From positions 1 through 23,664 of IMG/VR virus record IMGVR_UViG_3300007960_000195: a stretch of DNA of 23,664 nucleotides, one strand, 5' to 3'. The number at the start of each line of letters is the position of its first letter. Position 1 is the stretch's first letter. Positions 2,367-15,001 of the stretch are shown piece after piece. The DNA is from a virus. Made by a program: the position numbers and the translations under genes. Below the pieces are notes generated by a model. It was not told the origin of the DNA and did not search any database. It was given only the letters and a program-made list of their open reading frames with translations.

Positions 2367-4100
2367 ATGGCACGACGGAAGAAGGACCAGCCGATCCTGT
2401 TGGCCGAATACGAGGACTGCCTCCTGGGCATCTCCTTCCCGCGGATGGGCGAGGCCGGACCCCCGGTCGCCGTCTACTCCGCCGACATGATCGCCGCTCG
2501 AATGCGGGACGAGGACGGCCTCAAGCACCGCGCCGCCCGAAACTTCGTCGCCGACCACATCGAGACCCTCGACCTCGGGCCGGGAACCCCAAGAATCGTC
2601 TGGGCCGCAACAGTCACCGATTTCGGACCCAGGCTACGCCCGAGTGAGGTATCATCCGCGTATGCTCACCAGTTACGACGACTTCAAACGGCAGGTGACG
2701 GAGACCCTCGAGCACCAAGGCCGCACCCGATCAGGCTTGGCCCGACAGATGGAGGCCGACGGACTCCTCCGCGCCCATACCGTCCGATGCCTCCTCGGAA
2801 CCCCGGGCACACGCATTGGCCGGCGCAAGCCCACGTTCGACTCCGTGCTCAAGATCGCCGAGGCCGTGGGATTGCAGATCGTTCTCCGGGGACGCCCATG
2901 ACCAAGCCAGCAGGCGTCCATATGGCTATCGAGGACATCCCCCTCGAGCAGCTCCACAACGACCCCGCCAACGTCCGAAAGCACGGCGAGCAGAACCTCG
3001 CCGCCATCAAGGCGAGCCTCGCCCGGTTCGGGCAGCAGAAACCCATCGTCGTGAACCGCGATGGCGTGGTCGTGGCCGGCAACGGCACCCTCATGGCCGC
3101 CCGCGCCCTGGGATGGCGCACCGTCAAGGCCGTCCGCACGGGCCTCGAGGGGGCCGAGGCGACCGCCTTTGCCATCGCCGACAACCGCACCGCCGAGCTC
3201 GCCGAATGGGACGAGAGCGCCCTCCAGCAGCAGCTCGCCGCCATCGCCATCGAGGACGAGGAACTACTCGCCGCCACGGGCTACGACGAGAAGGAACTCG
3301 CCCGCCTCGCGGTTGCCGCCGCCCCGGAAGTGACCGAGGACGAGGTGCCCGAGCCGCCGGCCGACCCCATCACTCAACCAGGCGACCTCTGGATCCTGGG
3401 CGAGCATCGCCTGCTCTGCGGGGATAGCACCAAGGCCGAAGACGTGGAACGGCTCATGGACGGGGAAACGCCGCGTCTCATGGTTACCGACCCTCCGTAT
3501 GGGGTGAACTACGATCCTGAGATGCGGTCGACCGCGAAGTCTGTCGGAAAGATCGCCAACGACGACCGGGCCTCGTGGCTTGACGCGTGGTCGTTGTTCC
3601 CTGGAGACGTAGCGTATGTCTGGCACGCTTCGCTGTTCACGTCGGTCGTTCTTGCGGACTTGGAGTCGGCCGGCCTTCGACGCGTCTCGATGATTATCTG
3701 GAAAAAGCCATATGCAACCTTTTCGATGGCGAACTACCACTGGCAACACGAGCCGTGCTGGTATTGCGTCAGGCCGTCGGGGACCAGGAACTGGATTGGA
3801 TCGCCCAAGGAGTCGACCGTCTGGGACATGACGCAGCCGAAGGATCCATACGGTCGAAGCGGCGAAGACAAGACGCCGCACCCGACGCAGAAGCCAGTCG
3901 AGGCTATGGCTCGCCCAATGAGGAACCACGACCACCAGATCGTTTACGACCCGTTCCTTGGCTCCGGTACGACGCTGATCGCCGCCGAGCAACTCGGCCG
4001 CAAGTGCTACGGCATGGAGATCAGCCCCGCATACTGCGACGTGATCGTCAAGCGGTGGGAAACCCTCACCGGGCAGAAGGCCAAGCTGGAGAAGCGGTAA
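2367..4100 (+). CDS. Conserved small phage protein, ORF open in frame into the methyltransferase
   Basis: Residues 1 to about 93 look like an independent small protein: basic start MARRKKDQP, then ILLAEYEDCLLGISF, VAVYSADMIAARM and GPGTPRIVW. This matches a common short phage protein pattern with a 'Y....G.....G.P.AVYS.D.I' core that ends near 'G..TP...'. No stop follows. The same frame continues for about 84 Arg/Pro-rich residues that are the off-frame reading of the HTH gene (2662-2901), and then enters the methyltransferase at 2898 in frame, giving a nominal 577-residue protein. Either the stop was lost, giving a real fusion, or a one-base error hides a stop; a shift into the frame with TGA at 2645-2647 would end it just before the HTH gene. 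Codon usage is strongly G/C at third positions only up to about 2580. Function unknown. Confidence 0.5.
   Translation: MARRKKDQPILLAEYEDCLLGISFPRMGEAGPPVAVYSADMIAARMRDEDGLKHRAARNFVADHIETLDLGPGTPRIVWAATVTDFGPRLRPSEVSSAYAHQLRRLQTAGDGDPRAPRPHPIRLGPTDGGRRTPPRPYRPMPPRNPGHTHWPAQAHVRLRAQDRRGRGIADRSPGTPMTKPAGVHMAIEDIPLEQLHNDPANVRKHGEQNLAAIKASLARFGQQKPIVVNRDGVVVAGNGTLMAARALGWRTVKAVRTGLEGAEATAFAIADNRTAELAEWDESALQQQLAAIAIEDEELLAATGYDEKELARLAVAAAPEVTEDEVPEPPADPITQPGDLWILGEHRLLCGDSTKAEDVERLMDGETPRLMVTDPPYGVNYDPEMRSTAKSVGKIANDDRASWLDAWSLFPGDVAYVWHASLFTSVVLADLESAGLRRVSMIIWKKPYATFSMANYHWQHEPCWYCVRPSGTRNWIGSPKESTVWDMTQPKDPYGRSGEDKTPHPTQKPVEAMARPMRNHDHQIVYDPFLGSGTTLIAAEQLGRKCYGMEISPAYCDVIVKRWETLTGQKAKLEKR
2650..2655 (+). 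promoter_or_regulatory. -10-like box for a leaderless start
   Basis: TATCAT is placed six bases before the ATG at 2662 of the HTH gene. No convincing Shine-Dalgarno sequence lies at a useful distance. It supports ATG 2662 rather than the in-frame GTG at 2644, which lies upstream of the box. Confidence 0.4.
2662..2901 (+). CDS. Small HTH DNA-binding protein (Cro/XRE-like)
   Basis: This 79-residue protein has the layout of a short lambda-repressor-like HTH. A first helix (TSYDDFKRQVTETLEHQG) is followed by RSGLARQMEADGLLRAHTVRCLLG, which reads as helix-turn-helix (GLARQ...HTV..LL), then PTFDSVLKIAEAVGLQIVLR, the typical last helix and strand in which 'P....L.KIAEALG' follows the recognition helix. 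It probably binds DNA as a small regulator. It lies fully inside the long frame that begins at 2367, but its own codon use and domain logic show that this frame is the coding one. Its stop overlaps the methyltransferase start as ATGA, so the two are coupled. It may regulate the methyltransferase or the adjacent genes. Confidence 0.7.
   Translation: MLTSYDDFKRQVTETLEHQGRTRSGLARQMEADGLLRAHTVRCLLGTPGTRIGRRKPTFDSVLKIAEAVGLQIVLRGRP
2898..4100 (+). CDS. ParB-domain DNA methyltransferase (N-4/N-6 type, beta-class order)
   Basis: Counting from ATG 2898 (400 residues), residues 10-100 form a ParB/Srx-like N-terminal domain (LEQLHNDPANVRKHG, then VVAGNGTLMAARALGW and IADNRTAELAEWD). From about residue 165 comes a DNA methylase domain. 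The catalytic DPPYG motif is at 198-202, HPTQKP at 328-333, and the AdoMet-binding DPFLGSGTT at 351-359. Catalytic motif before AdoMet motif is the beta-class order. It would methylate an exocyclic amino group of adenine or cytosine in phage DNA, probably to evade restriction, as an orphan enzyme with no nuclease next to it. The start is set by the ATGA overlap with the HTH gene. The central part (about 3475-3960) uses visibly more A/T-ending codons than either flank, suggesting segment exchange around the target-recognition region. Confidence 0.85.
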   Translation: MTKPAGVHMAIEDIPLEQLHNDPANVRKHGEQNLAAIKASLARFGQQKPIVVNRDGVVVAGNGTLMAARALGWRTVKAVRTGLEGAEATAFAIADNRTAELAEWDESALQQQLAAIAIEDEELLAATGYDEKELARLAVAAAPEVTEDEVPEPPADPITQPGDLWILGEHRLLCGDSTKAEDVERLMDGETPRLMVTDPPYGVNYDPEMRSTAKSVGKIANDDRASWLDAWSLFPGDVAYVWHASLFTSVVLADLESAGLRRVSMIIWKKPYATFSMANYHWQHEPCWYCVRPSGTRNWIGSPKESTVWDMTQPKDPYGRSGEDKTPHPTQKPVEAMARPMRNHDHQIVYDPFLGSGTTLIAAEQLGRKCYGMEISPAYCDVIVKRWETLTGQKAKLEKR

Positions 4101-5939: not shown

Positions 5940-7430
5940 ATGAGCGACTCATCGAACCCGCTTGGGCAGCGCCAGAGCATCCCCGGGGCGGGCCTACAGC
6001 CCAAGAAGCGACCCCGAAAGCCCCTGCCCAACCCGGTAGATCGCGGCATCACCACGCCGCTGGCTCTCCCCGTGGAGGTGCAGCGCACCTTCTTCCGCAC
6101 CGCCAGCCTGATGCTGCGGAACTCAAGCCTCGCCTACAGGCTTGACCCCACCTACCAGGCGATGATGCGGGCAGACGCCGACATCGAGGGCGTTCTGCGC
6201 TCCCTCCTCGTCACCCTCGCCGGCCTCGAGTGGGCCGTCACCCCTACGGACGAGGAGAACCCGCGCCTCGTGAAGCTCGCCGGGCGCGTCAGCGAGATCA
6301 TCGACGCCATCCCCCGCCGATCCGACCTGTTCCGCGCCCTCCACGAGGCCGTCTGGTACGGCGTCAGCGCCGCCAACATCGTTTACGAGCGCGACCCCAA
6401 GCTCGGGGTGCGCGTGCGCGAATGGGTGCCATTCTCCTCGGACACCCTCGCCTTCGACCAGTACGGCAACCTCGCCATGCGGGTCGGCAGCGCCTACTTC
6501 GGGGAACCTGCCGTCACCGACCTGGGGTTCGACTCGCTCGTCCACATCTTCCCCGAGAACGAACGCCGCGCCATCATCCTGCACCGCGTCTTCACGACGG
6601 CCCCCAACTTTATCGACCCCAACACCAGCGAGCAGATCTACCGGGGCGTGGGAGCGCGTGATGTCTGCTGGTACATCTGGCTCCTCAAGCAGGAGATCCT
6701 CCAGAACGCCGCCGCCTACGCGGAGCGGTACGCCCTCGGGATCCGCGTGGGGTACTACCCGTCGGGGAACGATGCCGCCAAGAGCGAGATGCTGACCGTC
6801 CTTCAGAATCTAGTGAACGACAACAGCGTTGTGCTCCCGCGCACGGGTCCGAACGAGTCGATGTACGACATCGACATCAAGGACGCGAACGCCGGCCGCG
6901 CCCAGATCTTCATGGACATGGTGAACTGGCTGTCCTCGAAGCTCAAGGAGGCCATCCTGGGGCAGTCCCTCTCCAGCGAGGCCGGCGGTACGGGCCTCGG
7001 GTCAGGGGTGGCCGACCTCCACGCCGACACGCTGTCCCGCGTCATCCGCTACCACGCCGACACGATGGCCGAGTCGTTCACGAGCGACTTCGTGCGCGTG
7101 GTCGCCATGATGCTCGGCGCGACCGAGGAGGAGGCCCGGGAGATCCGGTTTGAGTTCGCGCCCGAGCGACCGAACGCCAAGGAGCGCATGGAGGCCATCC
7201 AAGCCTTCGTGCAGCTCGGGGGCCGCGTCAGCGAGCGCGAGGTACGAGATCTGCTCGGCCTGTCGGAACCCGCAGACGGCGAGGCCGTGCTTTCCGGCGG
7301 AGCCGCTAGCGCAGGCGCGAGTGACAACCCCCTCGCAGCCCTCCTCGGCCAGGGCGGGGAATCCGAGACGGATGAACCCCCGGCCCCCGAAGCGCCGAAG
7401 GTCTCTGCCATGCGTAAGCGCAAGCGATGA
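5940..7430 (+). CDS. Portal protein, DUF935 / Mu gp29-like
   Basis: This 496-residue protein has the DUF935 pattern: a linker-like N-terminus rich in Pro/Lys/Arg, then YQAMMRADADIEGVLRSLL, LEWAVTP, LFRALHEAVWYGVSAANIVYE and the late AILGQSLSSEAGG followed by LHADTLSRVIRYHAD. In Mu-like phages this family forms the dodecameric portal at the head vertex, through which DNA enters and to which the neck attaches. The C-terminus (about residue 440 onwards) is a disordered acidic/Ala/Pro stretch ending in MRKRKR. Its stop overlaps the next gene as ATGA. Placement between terminase and the gp7-like head protein is canonical. Confidence 0.88.
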   Translation: MSDSSNPLGQRQSIPGAGLQPKKRPRKPLPNPVDRGITTPLALPVEVQRTFFRTASLMLRNSSLAYRLDPTYQAMMRADADIEGVLRSLLVTLAGLEWAVTPTDEENPRLVKLAGRVSEIIDAIPRRSDLFRALHEAVWYGVSAANIVYERDPKLGVRVREWVPFSSDTLAFDQYGNLAMRVGSAYFGEPAVTDLGFDSLVHIFPENERRAIILHRVFTTAPNFIDPNTSEQIYRGVGARDVCWYIWLLKQEILQNAAAYAERYALGIRVGYYPSGNDAAKSEMLTVLQNLVNDNSVVLPRTGPNESMYDIDIKDANAGRAQIFMDMVNWLSSKLKEAILGQSLSSEAGGTGLGSGVADLHADTLSRVIRYHADTMAESFTSDFVRVVAMMLGATEEEAREIRFEFAPERPNAKERMEAIQAFVQLGGRVSEREVRDLLGLSEPADGEAVLSGGAASAGASDNPLAALLGQGGESETDEPPAPEAPKVSAMRKRKR

Positions 7431-8497
7431 AGAAGGAGACGCTCGACAAGCACCTGCGGTCGATCCTCAAGGACGCCCAAAAGGCGTACCGCGAGGCGCT
7501 TGCCGCCCAGATTCGAGGCGAGGAGGACGGCCCCGCCTGGGATCGCTTCGCCGAGGCCAGCAGCGCCCTCCTGCTTGCCTCGTGGCTTGCCGGAGCGCAT
7601 GGCGTCACCCGCCGCGCCAAGATCCCACAGGAGGTCATCGACGGGTTCCTCGAGGAGGACACCCCCGTCACCTTCGCGCTGCCCGCCCTCAAACTGGAGG
7701 GGTTCGGGGCCAAGTACATGGCCCCCATCGCCCGGTGGTTCCGCAGGCTAGTCCCGATCTCGCGCAAGTCTTGGGAGTTGCTCATCGAGGCCGCCCGCCG
7801 CAGCGCGATGGATGTCGCGTCTCACGAGGAGGAGAACGCCCTCGCGGACATCCGCAAGAACCCGTCCGTGGACGCCTTGCTGCGGGGGATGACGTACCGC
7901 GAAGGGGTGAATCGCGTCAAGAGGATCACGGACAGCACGTTCTTCGTAACGGGCATGAACGCGGAGCAGACGCGCCAGACGCAGGAGCTCGTCGCCCGGG
8001 TCATTGAGGGGCGCCCCGCCAAGAGCACGGTGGGTAAGTGGATCAGGGCCATGAACCTCGGTGACTTCGTGACCACCACCCAGCTCATCACGGGGACGGA
8101 CCTGTCCTCGGCTCGGCTGGAGACGGTGCTGCGGACGAACACGAACCGGGCGACCATCGAGGGAGCCGCCGAGGTGCTGCGGGACGAGACGGTGCAGGCG
8201 TTCGTACCCTTGGTGCAGTACAGCGCGACCAAGGATCCCAGGACGCGGCCCGAGCATCTGGCGATGGACGGGTACATCGGTCGGATGGAGGACTTCGACC
8301 GCCAGGGTATCACCCCGCCCTGTGGGTTCAACTGCCGCTGCGCGTTGATCCCCGTGCCGGCGTCGGTGGCCCTTGAGAAGCGATGGACAAACGCGGCAGG
8401 GGTGATCGACTACGCGGCGATCACACGCCACAACGGACAACGACAAGCACTCATCGACACGGGCAAGTTTCCCGATCCCGGGTTCGTGACTGCGTAA
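7427..8497 (+). CDS. Head morphogenesis protein, SPP1 gp7 / Mu F-like
   Basis: This 356-residue protein ends in the conserved block of the SPP1 gp7 family: YSATKDPRTRPEHLAMDG, then GITPPCGFNCRCALIPV. The conserved D-R-TR..H...DG and the CGxNCRC cysteines are plainly seen. The family comprises minor head proteins packed with, or bound to, the portal, and in Mu gpF it is needed for prohead assembly. The N-terminal two thirds are helical and variable (repeated Arg/Glu/Ala helices). It starts within the portal stop as ATGA and is surely co-translated. A few dozen minor copies per virion would be expected. Confidence 0.87.
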   Translation: MKKETLDKHLRSILKDAQKAYREALAAQIRGEEDGPAWDRFAEASSALLLASWLAGAHGVTRRAKIPQEVIDGFLEEDTPVTFALPALKLEGFGAKYMAPIARWFRRLVPISRKSWELLIEAARRSAMDVASHEEENALADIRKNPSVDALLRGMTYREGVNRVKRITDSTFFVTGMNAEQTRQTQELVARVIEGRPAKSTVGKWIRAMNLGDFVTTTQLITGTDLSSARLETVLRTNTNRATIEGAAEVLRDETVQAFVPLVQYSATKDPRTRPEHLAMDGYIGRMEDFDRQGITPPCGFNCRCALIPVPASVALEKRWTNAAGVIDYAAITRHNGQRQALIDTGKFPDPGFVTA

Positions 8498-9272: not shown

Positions 9273-9821
9273 ATGCCCGTCATCAACACCGCCCAGAACA
9301 ACTACAACAAGGTCAGCATCGACTCGGTCCCGAGCTCGTACAACAACGCCGCCGCCGTGCTGACCAAGACGGCCCCCAGCGTTGGCGTCCTGTTCGACCA
9401 GAGCATCACCAGCGTGGCCTCCCAGGCGCCGTCCCTGCTGTTCGTCATGCCCTTCCTGGTTTCGGCCACGACGGCGCAGACGGGCATCGGGATGCGCGTG
9501 CTTGGGTGGCGCAAGTACCTCGAGGCGTCCACCGGGGACTTCTGGCACATCCCGACGGTCCTGGCCGACCTCACCCTGACCTTCACGAGCGGCAGCGTCC
9601 CGAACTACACCATCGACGCGGTGGCGAATACCCGCACGTTCAGCGGGATCGCCCAGGTGGGTGGTACGCCCTCGGGCAACATCTACTCCCCGGCCACGGC
9701 TGCGGGCGGCAACGTGGAGCCAGCGGCGGCTATGATTGACCTTGCCGGCTCGCAGATCGTCACGGTGCAGTTCAAGTCGAGCGGCACGCCGACGATGGGC
9801 ACCTTCTGGTCGATCCTCTGA
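9273..9821 (+). CDS. Hypothetical virion protein, beta-rich
   Basis: This 182-residue protein has no charged clusters, is rich in Ser/Thr/Ala/Val and alternates like a beta-sandwich (LTLTFTSGSVPNYTIDAV, then IVTVQFKSSGTPTMGTFWSIL). It has no signal peptide and no membrane helix. Its composition and place, directly before a lectin-like protein, suggest a virion surface or adaptor protein on which the next protein is mounted, for example a head fibre base. The ATG follows the previous stop by one base, with GGAGAG upstream (9259-9264). Its stop overlaps the next ATG as TGATG. Family not recognised. Confidence 0.55.
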   Translation: MPVINTAQNNYNKVSIDSVPSSYNNAAAVLTKTAPSVGVLFDQSITSVASQAPSLLFVMPFLVSATTAQTGIGMRVLGWRKYLEASTGDFWHIPTVLADLTLTFTSGSVPNYTIDAVANTRTFSGIAQVGGTPSGNIYSPATAAGGNVEPAAAMIDLAGSQIVTVQFKSSGTPTMGTFWSIL

Positions 9822-11722
9822 TGAACCGAGCCAATCGCCCCAGGCTCTCGCGGATCAGCGGCTCAAGCTACGCGAGTCGCCTGATGTCCCGCGCCGGCGA
9901 CGGCTCCACGCTCACGCTGGACTTCACCACGGGCATCCTTGATCCGCGGCTGTCGTTCACGCGGTTGAGCAATGCCACGTTTATCAACAGCAGCGGGTTG
10001 GTTCAGTATGCGGATGCCAACGTGTTGATCCGTAGTCAGGAATATACGAACGCGGCGTGGGCGAAAATTCGTATTGATACAAGCGCAACGGGACTCAATG
10101 TAGCAAACACGACTACGGCACCCGATGGTTCTAATACGGGATTGCTTCTCCGGGCAGATTCCGCAAGTGGATCGCATCGAATACTGCAAAGCAATGGGAC
10201 AACAGGGGCAACGTATTTGTCTACCGCAGGCGGCGCAATAACGCCTGTAACGCTGTCAGCGTATTTCAAGGCCAACGGATCAGATTATTGTGCCTTGAAA
10301 ATATCGAATAATGTTGAATCCCGGGGTGTTACGCGAACTTTCAATCTCACAAACGGAGTGGTGTCAGGCGCAGAGGATACCGGATGGTCATTGGTAAGCG
10401 CAGCCGCAACACCAGTCGGAAGCGGGTGGTATCGCTGCGAGATCACCGTAAGTCTCACCCGAGTAGACGCAAACGACGATTTGATGGGTATTTGGCTTTG
10501 GGTTGCTAATGGTCCAGATGTTGTTGATCGCTCCTTTACCAACAGCGCGGCAAGTGTCTGGGTGTGGGGCGCACAGGTTTCCATCGGAGCGAACGCACTT
10601 GAATACCGTGCGACAACCACCGTTCCCTACCAAGCCCCCCGCTTCGACCACGACCCGACCACGCTCGCGCCGAGGGGGCTGCTGATTGAGGGTCAGAGCG
10701 TGAATGCTCTGAAGTATTCCGAGCAAATCAATACCGCGCCGTGGTTTACCTTCAGTGCATCTATTGCAGTCAATGATGGGGTTGCGCCAGACGGAAATAC
10801 CACAGCCGATTCCATTACTCCGAGTGGATTACCGGGCGGCGTGTTCTGCAATGACTCATTTGCTGCTGGGACATGGACATTCTCCATTTGGGCAAAAGCC
10901 AATCCGGGAAACACGCTAACCATTTCCATAGATAATGGAGGTAACGGACGAGCGGTGGCAATCACATTGAGTACCGCTACTGCTGGAACGCCGTTCATTC
11001 GTGGTACTGGCGGAACGGTGTCATCTCTGACTGTAAATAGCGTGACTGTGTTTCCAAACTCATGGCGTCGGATTTCAGTAACGGTTGTTACGACTGGCGC
11101 AAATTTTGTCGCCATGTATAACCCCAACGACACCAATAAGATTCTCGTCTGGGGCGCACAACTAGAAGCAGGCTCCGGCGCATCCTCCTACATCCCCACG
11201 GGCGCAAGCACGGCGACGAGGGCTGTTGATTACTGCACCATGCCGACGAGTTCGTTCATTACTGGCAACCCGTATCCAAACACTTTGTTCGTTGACTGCA
11301 TCCCGGCCACGGCAAACTCTGGTTTCCCAAACATGGTCAGGTTGTTCGATCAAACGGGCGGCGGAACATTTTCATACGGCAATGAAATCTACTACTACAA
11401 CGCTGCGTCAATGACTACACAGCGCAAAATTTCAGCGTCACCCAACACAGATAGAAACTTCGCAAACGGACTTGCATACAACACGCAACACAAGTTTGCC
11501 ACCGCCATCGACTCGTCATCGTTCATCGGATCGTATGACGGAGTCACGGGACTTGGGTCAACAACGGCTCCGGCTGCATTGGCATCGGTGGTCACGCATC
11601 TTGGTGTCGGAAACTCCGGTGGATCTACCGCAGTCAACGTGATGAACGGGTGCATCCGCCAGATCAAGTTCTGGCCGACCGCTCTCCCGCAGGCAACCCT
11701 CAACGCACTCACCACCCTATGA
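9821..11722 (+). CDS. Lectin-like fibre/receptor-binding candidate with tandem jelly-roll modules
   Basis: This 633-residue protein begins with the phage fibre-type leader LDFTTGILDPRLSFTR. Two related carbohydrate-binding-like modules follow, roughly 65-270 and 285-470. Each starts with 'N.L..S.E..N.A.W', has 'APDG.TA/TG....', a 'LSAYFKAN' or 'FSIWAKAN' strand, 'GWYRCEITVS' or 'SWRRISVTVV', and ends in WGAQ. Between them sits RFDHDPTTLAPRGLLIEGQS, a common phage linker. A third LamG-like domain (about 485-633) finishes with CIRQIKFWPTALPQATLNAL, the typical end of concanavalin-like lectin domains. It probably binds host glycans. Base composition is visibly lower in GC than its neighbours, pointing to acquisition. 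Its location inside the head module suggests a head fibre rather than a tail fibre. Confidence 0.72.
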   Translation: MNRANRPRLSRISGSSYASRLMSRAGDGSTLTLDFTTGILDPRLSFTRLSNATFINSSGLVQYADANVLIRSQEYTNAAWAKIRIDTSATGLNVANTTTAPDGSNTGLLLRADSASGSHRILQSNGTTGATYLSTAGGAITPVTLSAYFKANGSDYCALKISNNVESRGVTRTFNLTNGVVSGAEDTGWSLVSAAATPVGSGWYRCEITVSLTRVDANDDLMGIWLWVANGPDVVDRSFTNSAASVWVWGAQVSIGANALEYRATTTVPYQAPRFDHDPTTLAPRGLLIEGQSVNALKYSEQINTAPWFTFSASIAVNDGVAPDGNTTADSITPSGLPGGVFCNDSFAAGTWTFSIWAKANPGNTLTISIDNGGNGRAVAITLSTATAGTPFIRGTGGTVSSLTVNSVTVFPNSWRRISVTVVTTGANFVAMYNPNDTNKILVWGAQLEAGSGASSYIPTGASTATRAVDYCTMPTSSFITGNPYPNTLFVDCIPATANSGFPNMVRLFDQTGGGTFSYGNEIYYYNAASMTTQRKISASPNTDRNFANGLAYNTQHKFATAIDSSSFIGSYDGVTGLGSTTAPAALASVVTHLGVGNSGGSTAVNVMNGCIRQIKFWPTALPQATLNALTTL

Positions 11723-12024
11723 CCGACTTCATGCTCCGAGCCGATACCGAAGCGCAAATGGACGATGCGCTTGAAGCCGCCGGAATCCTCGTCGAAGTCG
11801 ATCAGGGCGAGGGCGAGATGGTCCTCATGCCCGTTCCGCATTGCGCTTTGGATCGCATCGGACCCATCCCATCCCAACTTGACCCGGAAGGGGAAGTCAT
11901 TGCGGAAGGCGATCCGCGATATCACGCCAACCTACGGGTAGCGTTTGAGATGACGGAGGAGCAGGTGGACGCGCTGCCGACGTTCGCGCCGGAGCCTGGT
12001 GTCCCGTACCGAGTATGGGCATGA
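11719..12024 (+). CDS. Hypothetical small acidic protein
   Basis: This 101-residue acidic protein starts at ATG 11719, whose ATGA overlaps the stop of the lectin-like gene; an upstream in-frame ATG at 11650 is inside that gene and is rejected. It begins MTDFMLRADTEAQMDDALEAAGI and ends in GVPYRVWA. Helix followed by beta hairpins is suggested (VEVDQGEGEMVLMPV). It may be a chaperone or attachment partner for the preceding fibre, as small acidic proteins behind fibre genes often are, but this is inference from position only. Its stop overlaps the next start as ATGA at 12021. Confidence 0.6.
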   Translation: MTDFMLRADTEAQMDDALEAAGILVEVDQGEGEMVLMPVPHCALDRIGPIPSQLDPEGEVIAEGDPRYHANLRVAFEMTEEQVDALPTFAPEPGVPYRVWA

Positions 12025-13532
12025 CCGACATCGACCTCAAGCCCACCCAGGAGATGGCGTCCAACGCTGCCCGCGGCCTCGAGCTGCGTGCCAAGCACGG
12101 CCGTGGCGGTACCGAGGTCGGCGTGGCACGCGCCCGAGACCTGAAGAACCGCAAGACCTTGTCCCCCGACACCGTTCGGCGGATGAACTCCTACTTCGCT
12201 CGCCACGAGGTGGACAAGAAGGGCGAGGGGTGGGGCAAGGACAGCGCCGGGTACATCGCCTGGCTGCTCTGGGGCGGCGACGCCGGCAAGGCGTGGGCCG
12301 AGCGCAAGGTGTCCGAAATGGACCGCAAGGAGGACAAGACCATGAACCAGAAGGCATCCCACGCGGTGGTCGAGGATGGGGACAAGGTCGTGCTGAAGGG
12401 CGTTGAGCTCTTCATGGCGTTCGACCCCGACATCGATGACCGCAAGTCCGACCCCGAGCTCGCCAAGTTCGACAATGACCGACTCCGCCGCATTGTCGCG
12501 GCTACGCGCAAGCATATGGCCCGCTCGTCTTACCCCCGCGTCGTGATCATGCACGAGAAGGACGGCAAGGAGCCAAAGAGCGCAGTTGGAAGAATCCCGC
12601 GCATCGAGTATCAGGAGCGCGATGGAGTCGGGTACATTGTGGGAGACATGGAGGTGGGACGAGACATCTTCGACCGACTTATCGCCACGAACGCCTTCCC
12701 CAGGCGGTCGGCGGAGATCTGGTCGGAGTCGGACCACCTGTCCGAGATCGCCCTTCTGGGCCGTGAAACACCTCGTCGTCCGCTGCCCGACACGCACTTC
12801 GTGCGCTCGGGTTCTCGGGTGACGTTCAGCAAGTCCAACCACGATCTCGCCGGGGTCGGGGGTGGCCTCAACACGTTCATCCCGGCGGAAATCAAGGAGG
12901 AAGCCTCTATGGCATCCGACAATGACATCCGCGAGGAGTTGGAGGCCATGAAGTGCGCCATCTCCGACATGGCTGCGGAGATGAAGAAGCGGTTCGGCGA
13001 GGCCGACACCGACGAGGACAAGGAAGAGATGGGCGAGCTCGTCATCAAGCACGAAGACGAGGAAGAGTTTGAGGTCAAGGACGAGGAGTTCGCGGCCGAG
13101 GACGAGGACGAGATGGTCATGGGCATGGACGAGGACGAGAAGCCCGACGTGCTCGCCGGCAAGGGTTCGTATGCCCTCCGGGCCGAGCTCGCCCGGACCA
13201 AGTCCCGCATGGCCCGCATGGAGGCCGAGCTGCGCCGCGAGAAGTTCAGCCGCGAGATCGACCTGCTCGAGCAGGAGGGCTACCGCATCCCGGCTAGCCA
13301 GCGCGACCGCCTGATCGCGCAGCTCCAGGGCGCCCGCACGACCACGGAAGCCGTGGACATGATCGAGTCGTGGCGCGAGCTGTTCGCCCGTGACCCGATT
13401 GCCACCAAGATCGACATGAGCCGCGCCGCTCTCCCCCGTGGAGATATGGACGTGGCCGACCTTGTCAAGGAGTTCGCCGGGCGTCCCGGTGAGTTCGCCA
13501 AGGCCATCAACTCCCGCATCAACAAGCGATAA
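12021..13532 (+). CDS. Capsid maturation protease-scaffold fusion with extra N-terminal domain
   Basis: This 503-residue protein starts at ATG 12021 (ATGA overlap; ATG 12015 is an in-frame alternative). Residues 5-100 form a separate domain common in phage proteins (MASNAARGLELRAKHGRGG, then SPDTVRRMNSYFARHEVDKKG and GYIAWLLWGGDAGKAWA). Residues about 108-280 look like the gpI-type protease, with VVLKGVELFMAF, then FPRRSAEIW and LSEIALLGRETPRRPLPD. From about 297 a very acidic, coiled-coil region (Glu/Asp runs, MARMEAELRREK) and a basic-ended C-terminus fit a scaffold. Two in-frame ATGs with strong ribosome sites (12342 and 12909) predict shorter products. The junction carries VGGGLNTFIP, also found at the capsid N-terminus. 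Catalytic residues were not assigned. Confidence 0.72.
   Translation: MTDIDLKPTQEMASNAARGLELRAKHGRGGTEVGVARARDLKNRKTLSPDTVRRMNSYFARHEVDKKGEGWGKDSAGYIAWLLWGGDAGKAWAERKVSEMDRKEDKTMNQKASHAVVEDGDKVVLKGVELFMAFDPDIDDRKSDPELAKFDNDRLRRIVAATRKHMARSSYPRVVIMHEKDGKEPKSAVGRIPRIEYQERDGVGYIVGDMEVGRDIFDRLIATNAFPRRSAEIWSESDHLSEIALLGRETPRRPLPDTHFVRSGSRVTFSKSNHDLAGVGGGLNTFIPAEIKEEASMASDNDIREELEAMKCAISDMAAEMKKRFGEADTDEDKEEMGELVIKHEDEEEFEVKDEEFAAEDEDEMVMGMDEDEKPDVLAGKGSYALRAELARTKSRMARMEAELRREKFSREIDLLEQEGYRIPASQRDRLIAQLQGARTTTEAVDMIESWRELFARDPIATKIDMSRAALPRGDMDVADLVKEFAGRPGEFAKAINSRINKR
12342..13532 (+). CDS. Predicted internal start: protease-scaffold without N-terminal domain
   Basis: ATG 12342 is in frame with the full gene and is preceded by AAGGAGG (12327-12333) with an 8-base spacer. 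It would begin MNQKASHAVVEDGDKVVL, exactly where the extra N-terminal domain ends and the protease-like part begins, giving 396 residues. The boundary makes biological sense, but no data show it is used. Confidence 0.45.
   Translation: MNQKASHAVVEDGDKVVLKGVELFMAFDPDIDDRKSDPELAKFDNDRLRRIVAATRKHMARSSYPRVVIMHEKDGKEPKSAVGRIPRIEYQERDGVGYIVGDMEVGRDIFDRLIATNAFPRRSAEIWSESDHLSEIALLGRETPRRPLPDTHFVRSGSRVTFSKSNHDLAGVGGGLNTFIPAEIKEEASMASDNDIREELEAMKCAISDMAAEMKKRFGEADTDEDKEEMGELVIKHEDEEEFEVKDEEFAAEDEDEMVMGMDEDEKPDVLAGKGSYALRAELARTKSRMARMEAELRREKFSREIDLLEQEGYRIPASQRDRLIAQLQGARTTTEAVDMIESWRELFARDPIATKIDMSRAALPRGDMDVADLVKEFAGRPGEFAKAINSRINKR
12909..13532 (+). CDS. Predicted internal start: scaffold protein
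   Basis: ATG 12909 is in frame and has AAGGAGG (12894-12900) with an 8-base spacer. The 207-residue product starts MASDNDIREELEAMKCA and contains the acidic coiled-coil region and the basic C-terminus (AKAINSRINKR). Nested scaffold genes inside protease genes are established in lambda (C/Nu3) and Mu (I/Z region), which supports this reading. The C-terminal helix would bind the capsid protein during prohead assembly. Confidence 0.6.
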   Translation: MASDNDIREELEAMKCAISDMAAEMKKRFGEADTDEDKEEMGELVIKHEDEEEFEVKDEEFAAEDEDEMVMGMDEDEKPDVLAGKGSYALRAELARTKSRMARMEAELRREKFSREIDLLEQEGYRIPASQRDRLIAQLQGARTTTEAVDMIESWRELFARDPIATKIDMSRAALPRGDMDVADLVKEFAGRPGEFAKAINSRINKR

Positions 13533-13544
13533 GGACTCAAAACA

Positions 13545-13943
13545 ATGGCACTCCAGTTCTCCCCAGAGCTCGTTGCAGGATCCGGTGGCATCAAGGCCTT
13601 CCGCATCTGCAAGATGAGCACGACCGCGTTCACGGGCCTCCCCTCCACCGCCGCCGCCGATTTCGTCGTGGGCGTGACGGACGGCTCCACCCGTCGCTTC
13701 GACACCACGGACGGTCAGCACGCCAACGAAGGCGAGCCGATCAGCCTCCAGCCCTCCAACTGCGTGCAGATTGAAGCGGGTGGAAACATCACCGCGGGCG
13801 CGGCCATCAAGGCTTCGACCGCCGGCGTCGGCATCGCCACCACTACGACGGGGGACGTTCCCCTGTTTGTCGCCCTTGAGGCCGCCGCAAGCGGCGAGAT
13901 CTTCTGGGCGTACCGCCTGCCCTCGGCGAAGCCCCTGCCCTAA
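13545..13943 (+). CDS. Head decoration / capsid cement protein, DUF2190-like
   Basis: This 132-residue beta-rich protein follows the protease/scaffold and precedes the capsid gene, where decoration proteins usually sit. Its pattern IEAGGNITAGAAIKASTAGVG followed by DVPLFVALEAAASGEIFWAYRL is that of DUF2190-type capsid cement proteins ('V...G..I.AG..V..D..G....A...G......A......G......L'). It would bind the outside of the capsid and stabilise it after expansion. The ATG at 13545 has only a weak site (TAAGGAC) and the gene is short, so it is probably highly co-expressed with the capsid gene. Confidence 0.7.
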   Translation: MALQFSPELVAGSGGIKAFRICKMSTTAFTGLPSTAAADFVVGVTDGSTRRFDTTDGQHANEGEPISLQPSNCVQIEAGGNITAGAAIKASTAGVGIATTTTGDVPLFVALEAAASGEIFWAYRLPSAKPLP

Positions 13944-13966
13944 TCCCTGACTGAAGGAGGCCTAAC

Positions 13967-15001
13967 ATGGCATTCGTGACTGTCGGTGGCGGACTGAACA
14001 CCTTCGTCCCCTCCACCAACGCGCTCGCAACGGGCGCACTCCAGGTTGAGTTCACCCGTGCGGTGAACACGTTCGCAATCACCCAGTACGCACAGATCGT
14101 CCCGGCCAATCAGATGACCGGGTACTACGTTCGCATGAACGCGGCCGACAACGTCCGCGTGACGGACGTGAACGAGTTCGTGTGGCCCCTGGGCAACGAC
14201 CGCCCCGTCGGCAAGATGAACGAGCACGATTTCGTGTCGTTCACCTGCCAGCGGTTCGGCTACAGCTTCTACATCCCCAACGAGACTGCCAAGCAGGCCG
14301 CGTGGGACGTGGTTGCCCAGCACGCCCGCAGCAAGGCGCAGCTCGCCATGACCGCCCGCTCGATGCGGACGGCCACCGCCCTCACGGGTTCGGCGGCGCA
14401 GTCGGCCTTCACCGCGGTCGGCAACTACTACGCCTCGGGAACGGCGATCTCGGGCGGCGCGTGGACCGCGTCCACGACCAACGACATCCAGGAGGGCGTC
14501 CAGATCGCTCTCCAGCGGATCAGCCTCTCGACGGGCGGCGCCGTCCGTCCCGAGGACATCTGCATGGTCATGTCGCCGACCATCGCCAACGCGCTGGCCC
14601 GGACCACCGAGGTCAAGGACTACGTGAAGAACTACCCCGCCGCGCTGAACGCGCTCCAGGGGCAGTCCACCTTCTCGAAGTACGGCCTGCCGGAGTTCCT
14701 GTTCGGCGTGCGCGTCGTGGTGGATGACTCGGTCAAGGTCACGAGCAAGAAGGGCGCGACCCTCGCGTCGAGCTTCGTCTACGGCAACGCCGTGGTGTTC
14801 GTGAGCCGTCCGGGTGGCCTGATCGGCCTCGAGGGCAGCCCCTCGTTCAGCACCTGCCAGATCTTCGCCTACGAAGACATGACGGTCGAGAACTGGGACG
14901 ACCCGCACAACCGCCGCATCGAAGGCCGGGTCGTGGACAACTCCACCTCCGAGCTCGTTGCCCCGGTCAGCGGCGTCCTGATCGCTAACGTGACCGCGTA
15001 A
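13967..15001 (+). CDS. Major capsid protein
   Basis: This 344-residue protein has the size and composition of a HK97-fold capsid protein and the strongest ribosome site of the region (AAGGAGG at 13954-13960, six bases before ATG). Its N-terminus, MAFVTVGGGLNTFVP, is short, so the scaffold is a separate protein. The middle shows EHDFVSFTCQRFGYSFYIPNETAKQAAWDV, VRPEDICMVMSPTIANALA, GLPEFLFGVRVVVDDSVKV and GNAVVFVSRPGGLIGLEG, typical of an A-domain and spine-helix layout. It ends VSGVLIANVTA. Placement after the decoration protein and before a strong terminator fits. No cysteine-based or enzymatic motif is seen. Identification rests on size, context and pattern rather than a specific family match. 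Confidence 0.82.
   Translation: MAFVTVGGGLNTFVPSTNALATGALQVEFTRAVNTFAITQYAQIVPANQMTGYYVRMNAADNVRVTDVNEFVWPLGNDRPVGKMNEHDFVSFTCQRFGYSFYIPNETAKQAAWDVVAQHARSKAQLAMTARSMRTATALTGSAAQSAFTAVGNYYASGTAISGGAWTASTTNDIQEGVQIALQRISLSTGGAVRPEDICMVMSPTIANALARTTEVKDYVKNYPAALNALQGQSTFSKYGLPEFLFGVRVVVDDSVKVTSKKGATLASSFVYGNAVVFVSRPGGLIGLEGSPSFSTCQIFAYEDMTVENWDDPHNRRIEGRVVDNSTSELVAPVSGVLIANVTA

Follow-up and report, generated by a model that had tools for sequence, protein, structure and literature searches.

Why would the protease-scaffold protein and the major capsid protein of one phage carry nearly the same ten residues? This question is raised by the head gene cluster of a viral DNA stretch of 23,664 nucleotides, analysed here at its full length (the window; IMG/VR record IMGVR_UViG_3300007960_000195). 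A sequence-only reading had spotted VGGGLNTFIP in the first of these proteins and VGGGLNTFVP in the second, and had proposed that both copies serve as recognition sites for the phage's own protease or, alternatively, as docking sites by which the scaffold mimics the capsid arm. Both peptides are indeed encoded in the window (Table 1). The copy in the protease-scaffold protein (copy 1) comprises residues 281-290 if counted from ATG 12015, and residues 279-288, as originally numbered, if counted from ATG 12021.

Table 1. Features of the head gene cluster that bear on the repeated motif (positions in the window).
Feature	Position	Strand	Remark
Mu-type portal protein (Portal_Mu)	5940..7430	+	context
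Mu F-like minor head protein	7427..8497	+	context
Full-length ORF, 505 aa: N-terminal mobile module, protease, motif linker and scaffold	12015..13532	+	
N-terminal module (phrog_2859)	12015..12341	+	missing in some relatives; elsewhere a separate ORF or part of another fusion
AAGGAGG and second in-frame start ATG 12342 (protease-scaffold without N-terminal module)	12327..12344	+	
Protease domain, residues 116-273	12360..12833	+	
Candidate catalytic H180, S232 and D259	12552, 12708, 12789	+	all invariant
Motif copy 1, VGGGLNTFIP	12855..12884	+	linker of low model confidence that joins protease to scaffold
AAGGAGG and third in-frame start ATG 12909 (scaffold alone)	12894..12911	+	
Scaffold part: acidic stretch, long coiled helix, conserved C-terminal helices	12909..13532	+	
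Small head protein (phrog_673)	13545..13943	+	between protease-scaffold and capsid genes
Major capsid protein	13967..15001	+	HK97-fold matches over residues 103-341
Motif copy 2, VGGGLNTFVP	13982..14011	+	capsid residues 6-15

The likeness between the two proteins was scored as their best ungapped 10-mer pair under BLOSUM62, with 2000 shuffles as the null. The motif pair scores 53, as opposed to a mean of 26.1 (s.d. 2.7) and a maximum of 42 for the shuffles (n = 2000), which corresponds to a Gumbel p of about 1.3e-6, extrapolated from these 2000 shuffles. The runner-up among all pairs of the 23 window genes scores 36. No further motif-bearing ORF occurs in the window or in the first 139 loci, and the motif is confined there to the protease-scaffold and capsid proteins. 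A weak likeness at residue 450 of a tail-like protein (AGSGASSYIP; 9821-11722) lacks the LNT core and was dropped. The gene of the latter protein, which has a phage tail family match (phrog_5939), sits in the head cluster downstream of the F-like gene and upstream of the protease gene; its product may act as a head fibre or in receptor binding.

The capsid and protease proteins were then used as queries, and each retrieved many IMG/VR contigs. These contain 59 distinct protease/capsid gene pairs, which form a single IMG/VR clade and are not independent. As the sequence-only reading had suggested looking for, the paired motif recurs in these related phages: both copies are retained in the 59 distinct pairs, with one capsid carrying Cys instead of the first Gly. 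Their consensus is [VA]GGGLNT[FY][VI]P, with GGGLNT-aromatic-V/I-P as the core. Capsid copies mostly read VGGGLNTYVP (n = 43) or VGGGLNTFVP (n = 14), next to single cases of VGGGLNTYIP and VCGGLNTFVP. The scaffold copies comprise VGGGLNTFVP (n = 38), AGGGLNTFVP (n = 13), AGGGLNTFIP (n = 6), VGGGLNTFIP (n = 1) and VGGGLNTYVP (n = 1). Tyr is thus found in 44 of the 59 capsid copies at the position where 58 of the 59 scaffold copies have Phe. This difference is uncoupled between the two copies within a phage, while the core is invariable across the 59 pairs.

At the DNA level, the two copies within a phage show a mean of 6.6 mismatches over 30 bases and of 5.4 over the 10 wobble positions (59 pairs). 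With around half of the wobble positions diverged, the identity of the peptides must be maintained by selection on the protein, and the earlier view that protein sequence is conserved here, rather than a recent DNA copy, now extends to the whole clade. DNA duplication or gene conversion was rejected as the origin of the pair, as the wobble positions differ and no direct repeat connects the two sites. In the clade alignment, the copy in the scaffold ORF forms an invariant block, with three variable residues right after it. In the capsid protein, the 19 residues after the motif (residues 16-34) are equally invariant as the motif itself.

The assignment of the first protein as a fused protease and scaffold held up in a structure model built from 19 relatives (mean pLDDT 52.9, with a better core from about residue 115). 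Aligned with VIA-align, residues 116-273 of the model match T4 gp21 best (Z 7.3, rmsd 3.1, 112 residues aligned), followed by the proteases of VZV, HCMV, HSV and KSHV (Z 4-6). No protease fold match reaches Z 8, but the top of the list is made up almost entirely of the gp21/assemblin family. Judging from this modelled fold and the genomic context, the ORF encodes a protease resembling T4 gp21 and the herpes assemblins, joined to a scaffold. The protease region has no significant Pfam or NCBIfam match, and PHROGs matches the N-terminal module only. H180, S232, D259 and H261 are invariant among 19 sequences. The spacing between S232 and D259 is 27, compared to 25 between S153 and D178 in SPN3US. 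This conservation, together with a spacing that resembles known prohead proteases, points to H180, S232 and D259 as the putative catalytic residues.

Copy 1 starts eight residues past the end of the protease match, in a disordered linker with a pLDDT of 22-29. In the fold alignments, model residue 273 pairs with residue 256 of the HCMV chain and residue 247 of the HSV chain. Both protease chains end at these residues, at their release sites. The location of the motif at the protease/scaffold junction, where a release site would be expected, thereby also agrees with the earlier reading.

The N-terminal module of about 108 residues that precedes the protease is mobile. Besides being absent in some relatives, it fronts a protein annotated as major capsid protein in Roseobacter phage CRP-831, occurs as a stand-alone ORF in Synechococcus phage S-CBS4 and, in Vibrio phage 1.013.O, is joined to a long head protein. 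The 90 phage records that matched the full ORF were rejected as relatives: among the matches listed, only this N-terminal part aligns.

The start signals within the ORF suggest that it probably yields three nested proteins. The signal of the third start (AAGGAGG, 8 nt, ATG) is invariant in 58 of 58 relatives, with GAG representing just 73% of the Glu codons. Translation from this ATG, nine residues past copy 1 (the motif spans residues 9-18 before the start), very probably also produces the scaffold alone and without the motif. For the second start (codon 110), 45 distinct relatives with a recognisable KTxN-type junction were counted, leaving out a few with a variant junction. Behind a Shine-Dalgarno-like AGGAGG, they have GTG (n = 43) or ATG (n = 2), with GTG making up just a third of the valine codons in the ORF. 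Relatives that lack the N-terminal module begin near the position equivalent to 12342.

The protein that carries copy 2 has an HK97 fold according to its model, even though this model is poor (pLDDT 40): phage capsids make up the top 10 of its fold matches, and phage capsids or encapsulins account for nearly all of the 50 matches, with Z values of 4.6-7.3. In addition, 15 of 18 capsid relatives match the major head protein phrog_29. The genes are ordered as Mu-type portal, F-like protein, protease-scaffold, small head protein, capsid and gp36-like protein.

This kind of system is known in principle. The protease of SPN3US cuts its own C-terminal tail and the N-terminus of the major capsid protein (MCP) at one shared motif, and an analogous prohead protease specificity has been described for phiKZ and T4 (PMC5694885; PMC7411985). 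The statement that no description is known thus holds for the sequence of the motif but not for the arrangement of a shared site, which is documented in SPN3US. SPN3US, phiKZ and 201phi2-1 also resemble the present phage in having a T4 gp21-type protease, with one motif at both the protease tail and the MCP N-terminus. However, the SPN3US-type motif (A-X-E or S/A/G/T-X-E) comprises three residues and occurs in eight or more proteins, whereas the motif described here has ten residues, is found in two proteins only and contains no Glu. The novelty lies in a motif of this sequence and length that is restricted to two proteins, and in an ORF with three nested starts.

Two other systems have a comparable protein architecture. 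P2 gpO likewise joins an N-terminal protease and a C-terminal scaffold in a single protein; it cuts itself and removes a propeptide of 31 residues from the capsid protein gpN, but its authors found no motif common to the gpN N-arm and gpO (PMC7552001). Herpesvirus UL26/UL26.5 resembles the present ORF in its protease fold. Its release site also precedes a nested in-frame start for the scaffold, as proposed here, the distance being about 21 residues in pseudorabies virus. The herpesviruses have their second site near the scaffold C-terminus, and the source passages describe no site at the MCP N-terminus (PMC4498786).

Mu comes closest in gene order, with a Mu-type portal and an F-like protein upstream and a protease with a nested in-frame scaffold start; in several Mu-like relatives, a small protein also precedes the capsid gene, as here. 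Common ancestry with Mu I and T went undetected in profile comparisons from shallow clade alignments (hhalign E 0.08 and 0.51 over about 24 columns). Blastp of the protease and capsid proteins against Mu I/T yielded no real match, and no shared motif was found in Mu. The N-terminus of the Mu capsid protein gpT is annotated as confirmed by amino-acid sequencing. Given the similar gene order, this argues against a capsid cut and calls for caution in assuming one here.

We favour, with a probability of roughly 0.6, the reading in which the phage's own prohead protease recognises or cleaves the motif in both proteins, for protease release as well as for capsid N-terminal trimming. We base this on the position of the junction copy right past the protease fold and before the scaffold start, on the confinement of the motif to these two proteins, on the invariant block followed by variable residues in the scaffold ORF, and on the precedents of SPN3US, P2 and the herpesviruses. 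We infer the following course of events. Once in the procapsid, the protease would free itself from the scaffold by cleaving the junction copy. It would also cut the capsid copy, which would remove about 6-14 residues from the N-arm, and this trimming would then license shell expansion. The scissile bond may lie between LNT and [FY], by analogy to the hydrophobic P3 in other prohead proteases.

Nonetheless, several observations speak against a cleavage site. Ten near-identical residues are long for a protease site, given the three of SPN3US, and the implied capsid propeptide is shorter than the 31-130 residues known elsewhere. The motif is no separate island in the capsid protein either, where the adjoining residues are just as invariant, and the fold matches are of limited strength and come from a weak model. 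Room for docking or mimicry is left in particular by so long a motif and so short a propeptide, together with the conserved N-arm and the sequenced start of the Mu capsid protein.

In such a scenario, which we consider the main rival but clearly less likely, the linker copy would imitate the capsid N-arm and dock the protease-bearing scaffold chains in the N-arm groove of a neighbouring subunit. The protease would consequently be carried into the procapsid and be lost on shell expansion. A long and nearly identical motif within a fully conserved capsid N-arm would suit this role, as would a scaffold that carries no second copy and that, if started at ATG 12909, has no motif at all, but a release site accounts better for a position right at the edge of the protease. 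According to entry titles among the fold matches, encapsulin shells of the HK97 fold are bound by short cargo peptides, and a linker copy acting as an N-arm mimic would be the phage counterpart of such peptides. No phage precedent was found for such mimicry, however, and no N-arm-like motif was found in gpO by the P2 authors (PMC7552001). The C-terminal tail of the SPN3US protease has been proposed to target the protease to the prohead (PMC7411985). The Tyr/Phe difference between the copies does not co-vary within phages, which counts against mimicry. A little less probable still is a version in which the linker copy seats the protease on the inner shell, in the N-arm groove, and in which expansion or N-arm trimming and protease release form one coupled event. 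Docking, if true, would reveal how proteases get recruited into procapsids.

It is also conceivable, though improbable, that the protease recognises the motif via an exosite or its cleft and cuts one copy, e.g., its own, with the role of the capsid copy limited to attracting or restraining it. This reading needs an extra assumption, even if the protease is the only molecule obliged to meet both copies and Mu-like capsid N-termini can, by annotation, stay uncut. Finally, although a single clade carries the motif and its 59 pairs are not independent, coincidence or a functionless relic of a local duplication is highly improbable in view of the chance p of about 1e-6, the wobble positions that diverged under unchanged peptides and the variable flanks on the scaffold side.

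Beyond the clade, degenerate DNA scans with the motif and relaxed forms of it in 2.9 million viral contigs returned clade members, chance matches or nothing (for one scan, 80 of 105 matches are listed). No relatives from outside the clade were found in INPHARED phages, plasmids or GTDB genomes. The comparison with other phages covered eleven that have a similar protease-capsid pair: Vibrio phage 1.013.O, S-CBS4 and nine Mu-like phages, the latter with the protease directly or almost directly upstream of the capsid gene. No common 10-mer clearly exceeded the shuffles in these phages. The best one (p of about 0.05, Vibrio phage 1.013.O) lies away from the capsid N-terminus. In the Shewanella Mu-like phage MuM16-1, an annotated RNA-directed DNA polymerase (11653-12609 in the locus of that phage) is located between the morphogenesis and protease genes.

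As a shared cleavage site, the motif provides a defined ten-residue candidate site for the prohead protease in a lineage without isolates in INPHARED. Two short mutations could test the release of the fused protease from the scaffold and the trimming of Mu-type capsid N-arms.

Elsewhere in the window, the ORF at 2367-4100 encodes a ParB-like domain fused to an N6/N4 DNA methylase. No match was found for the first 180 residues of this ORF, a stretch that shares DNA with a distinct small ORF read in a different frame; the true start of the fusion ORF may lie further downstream.
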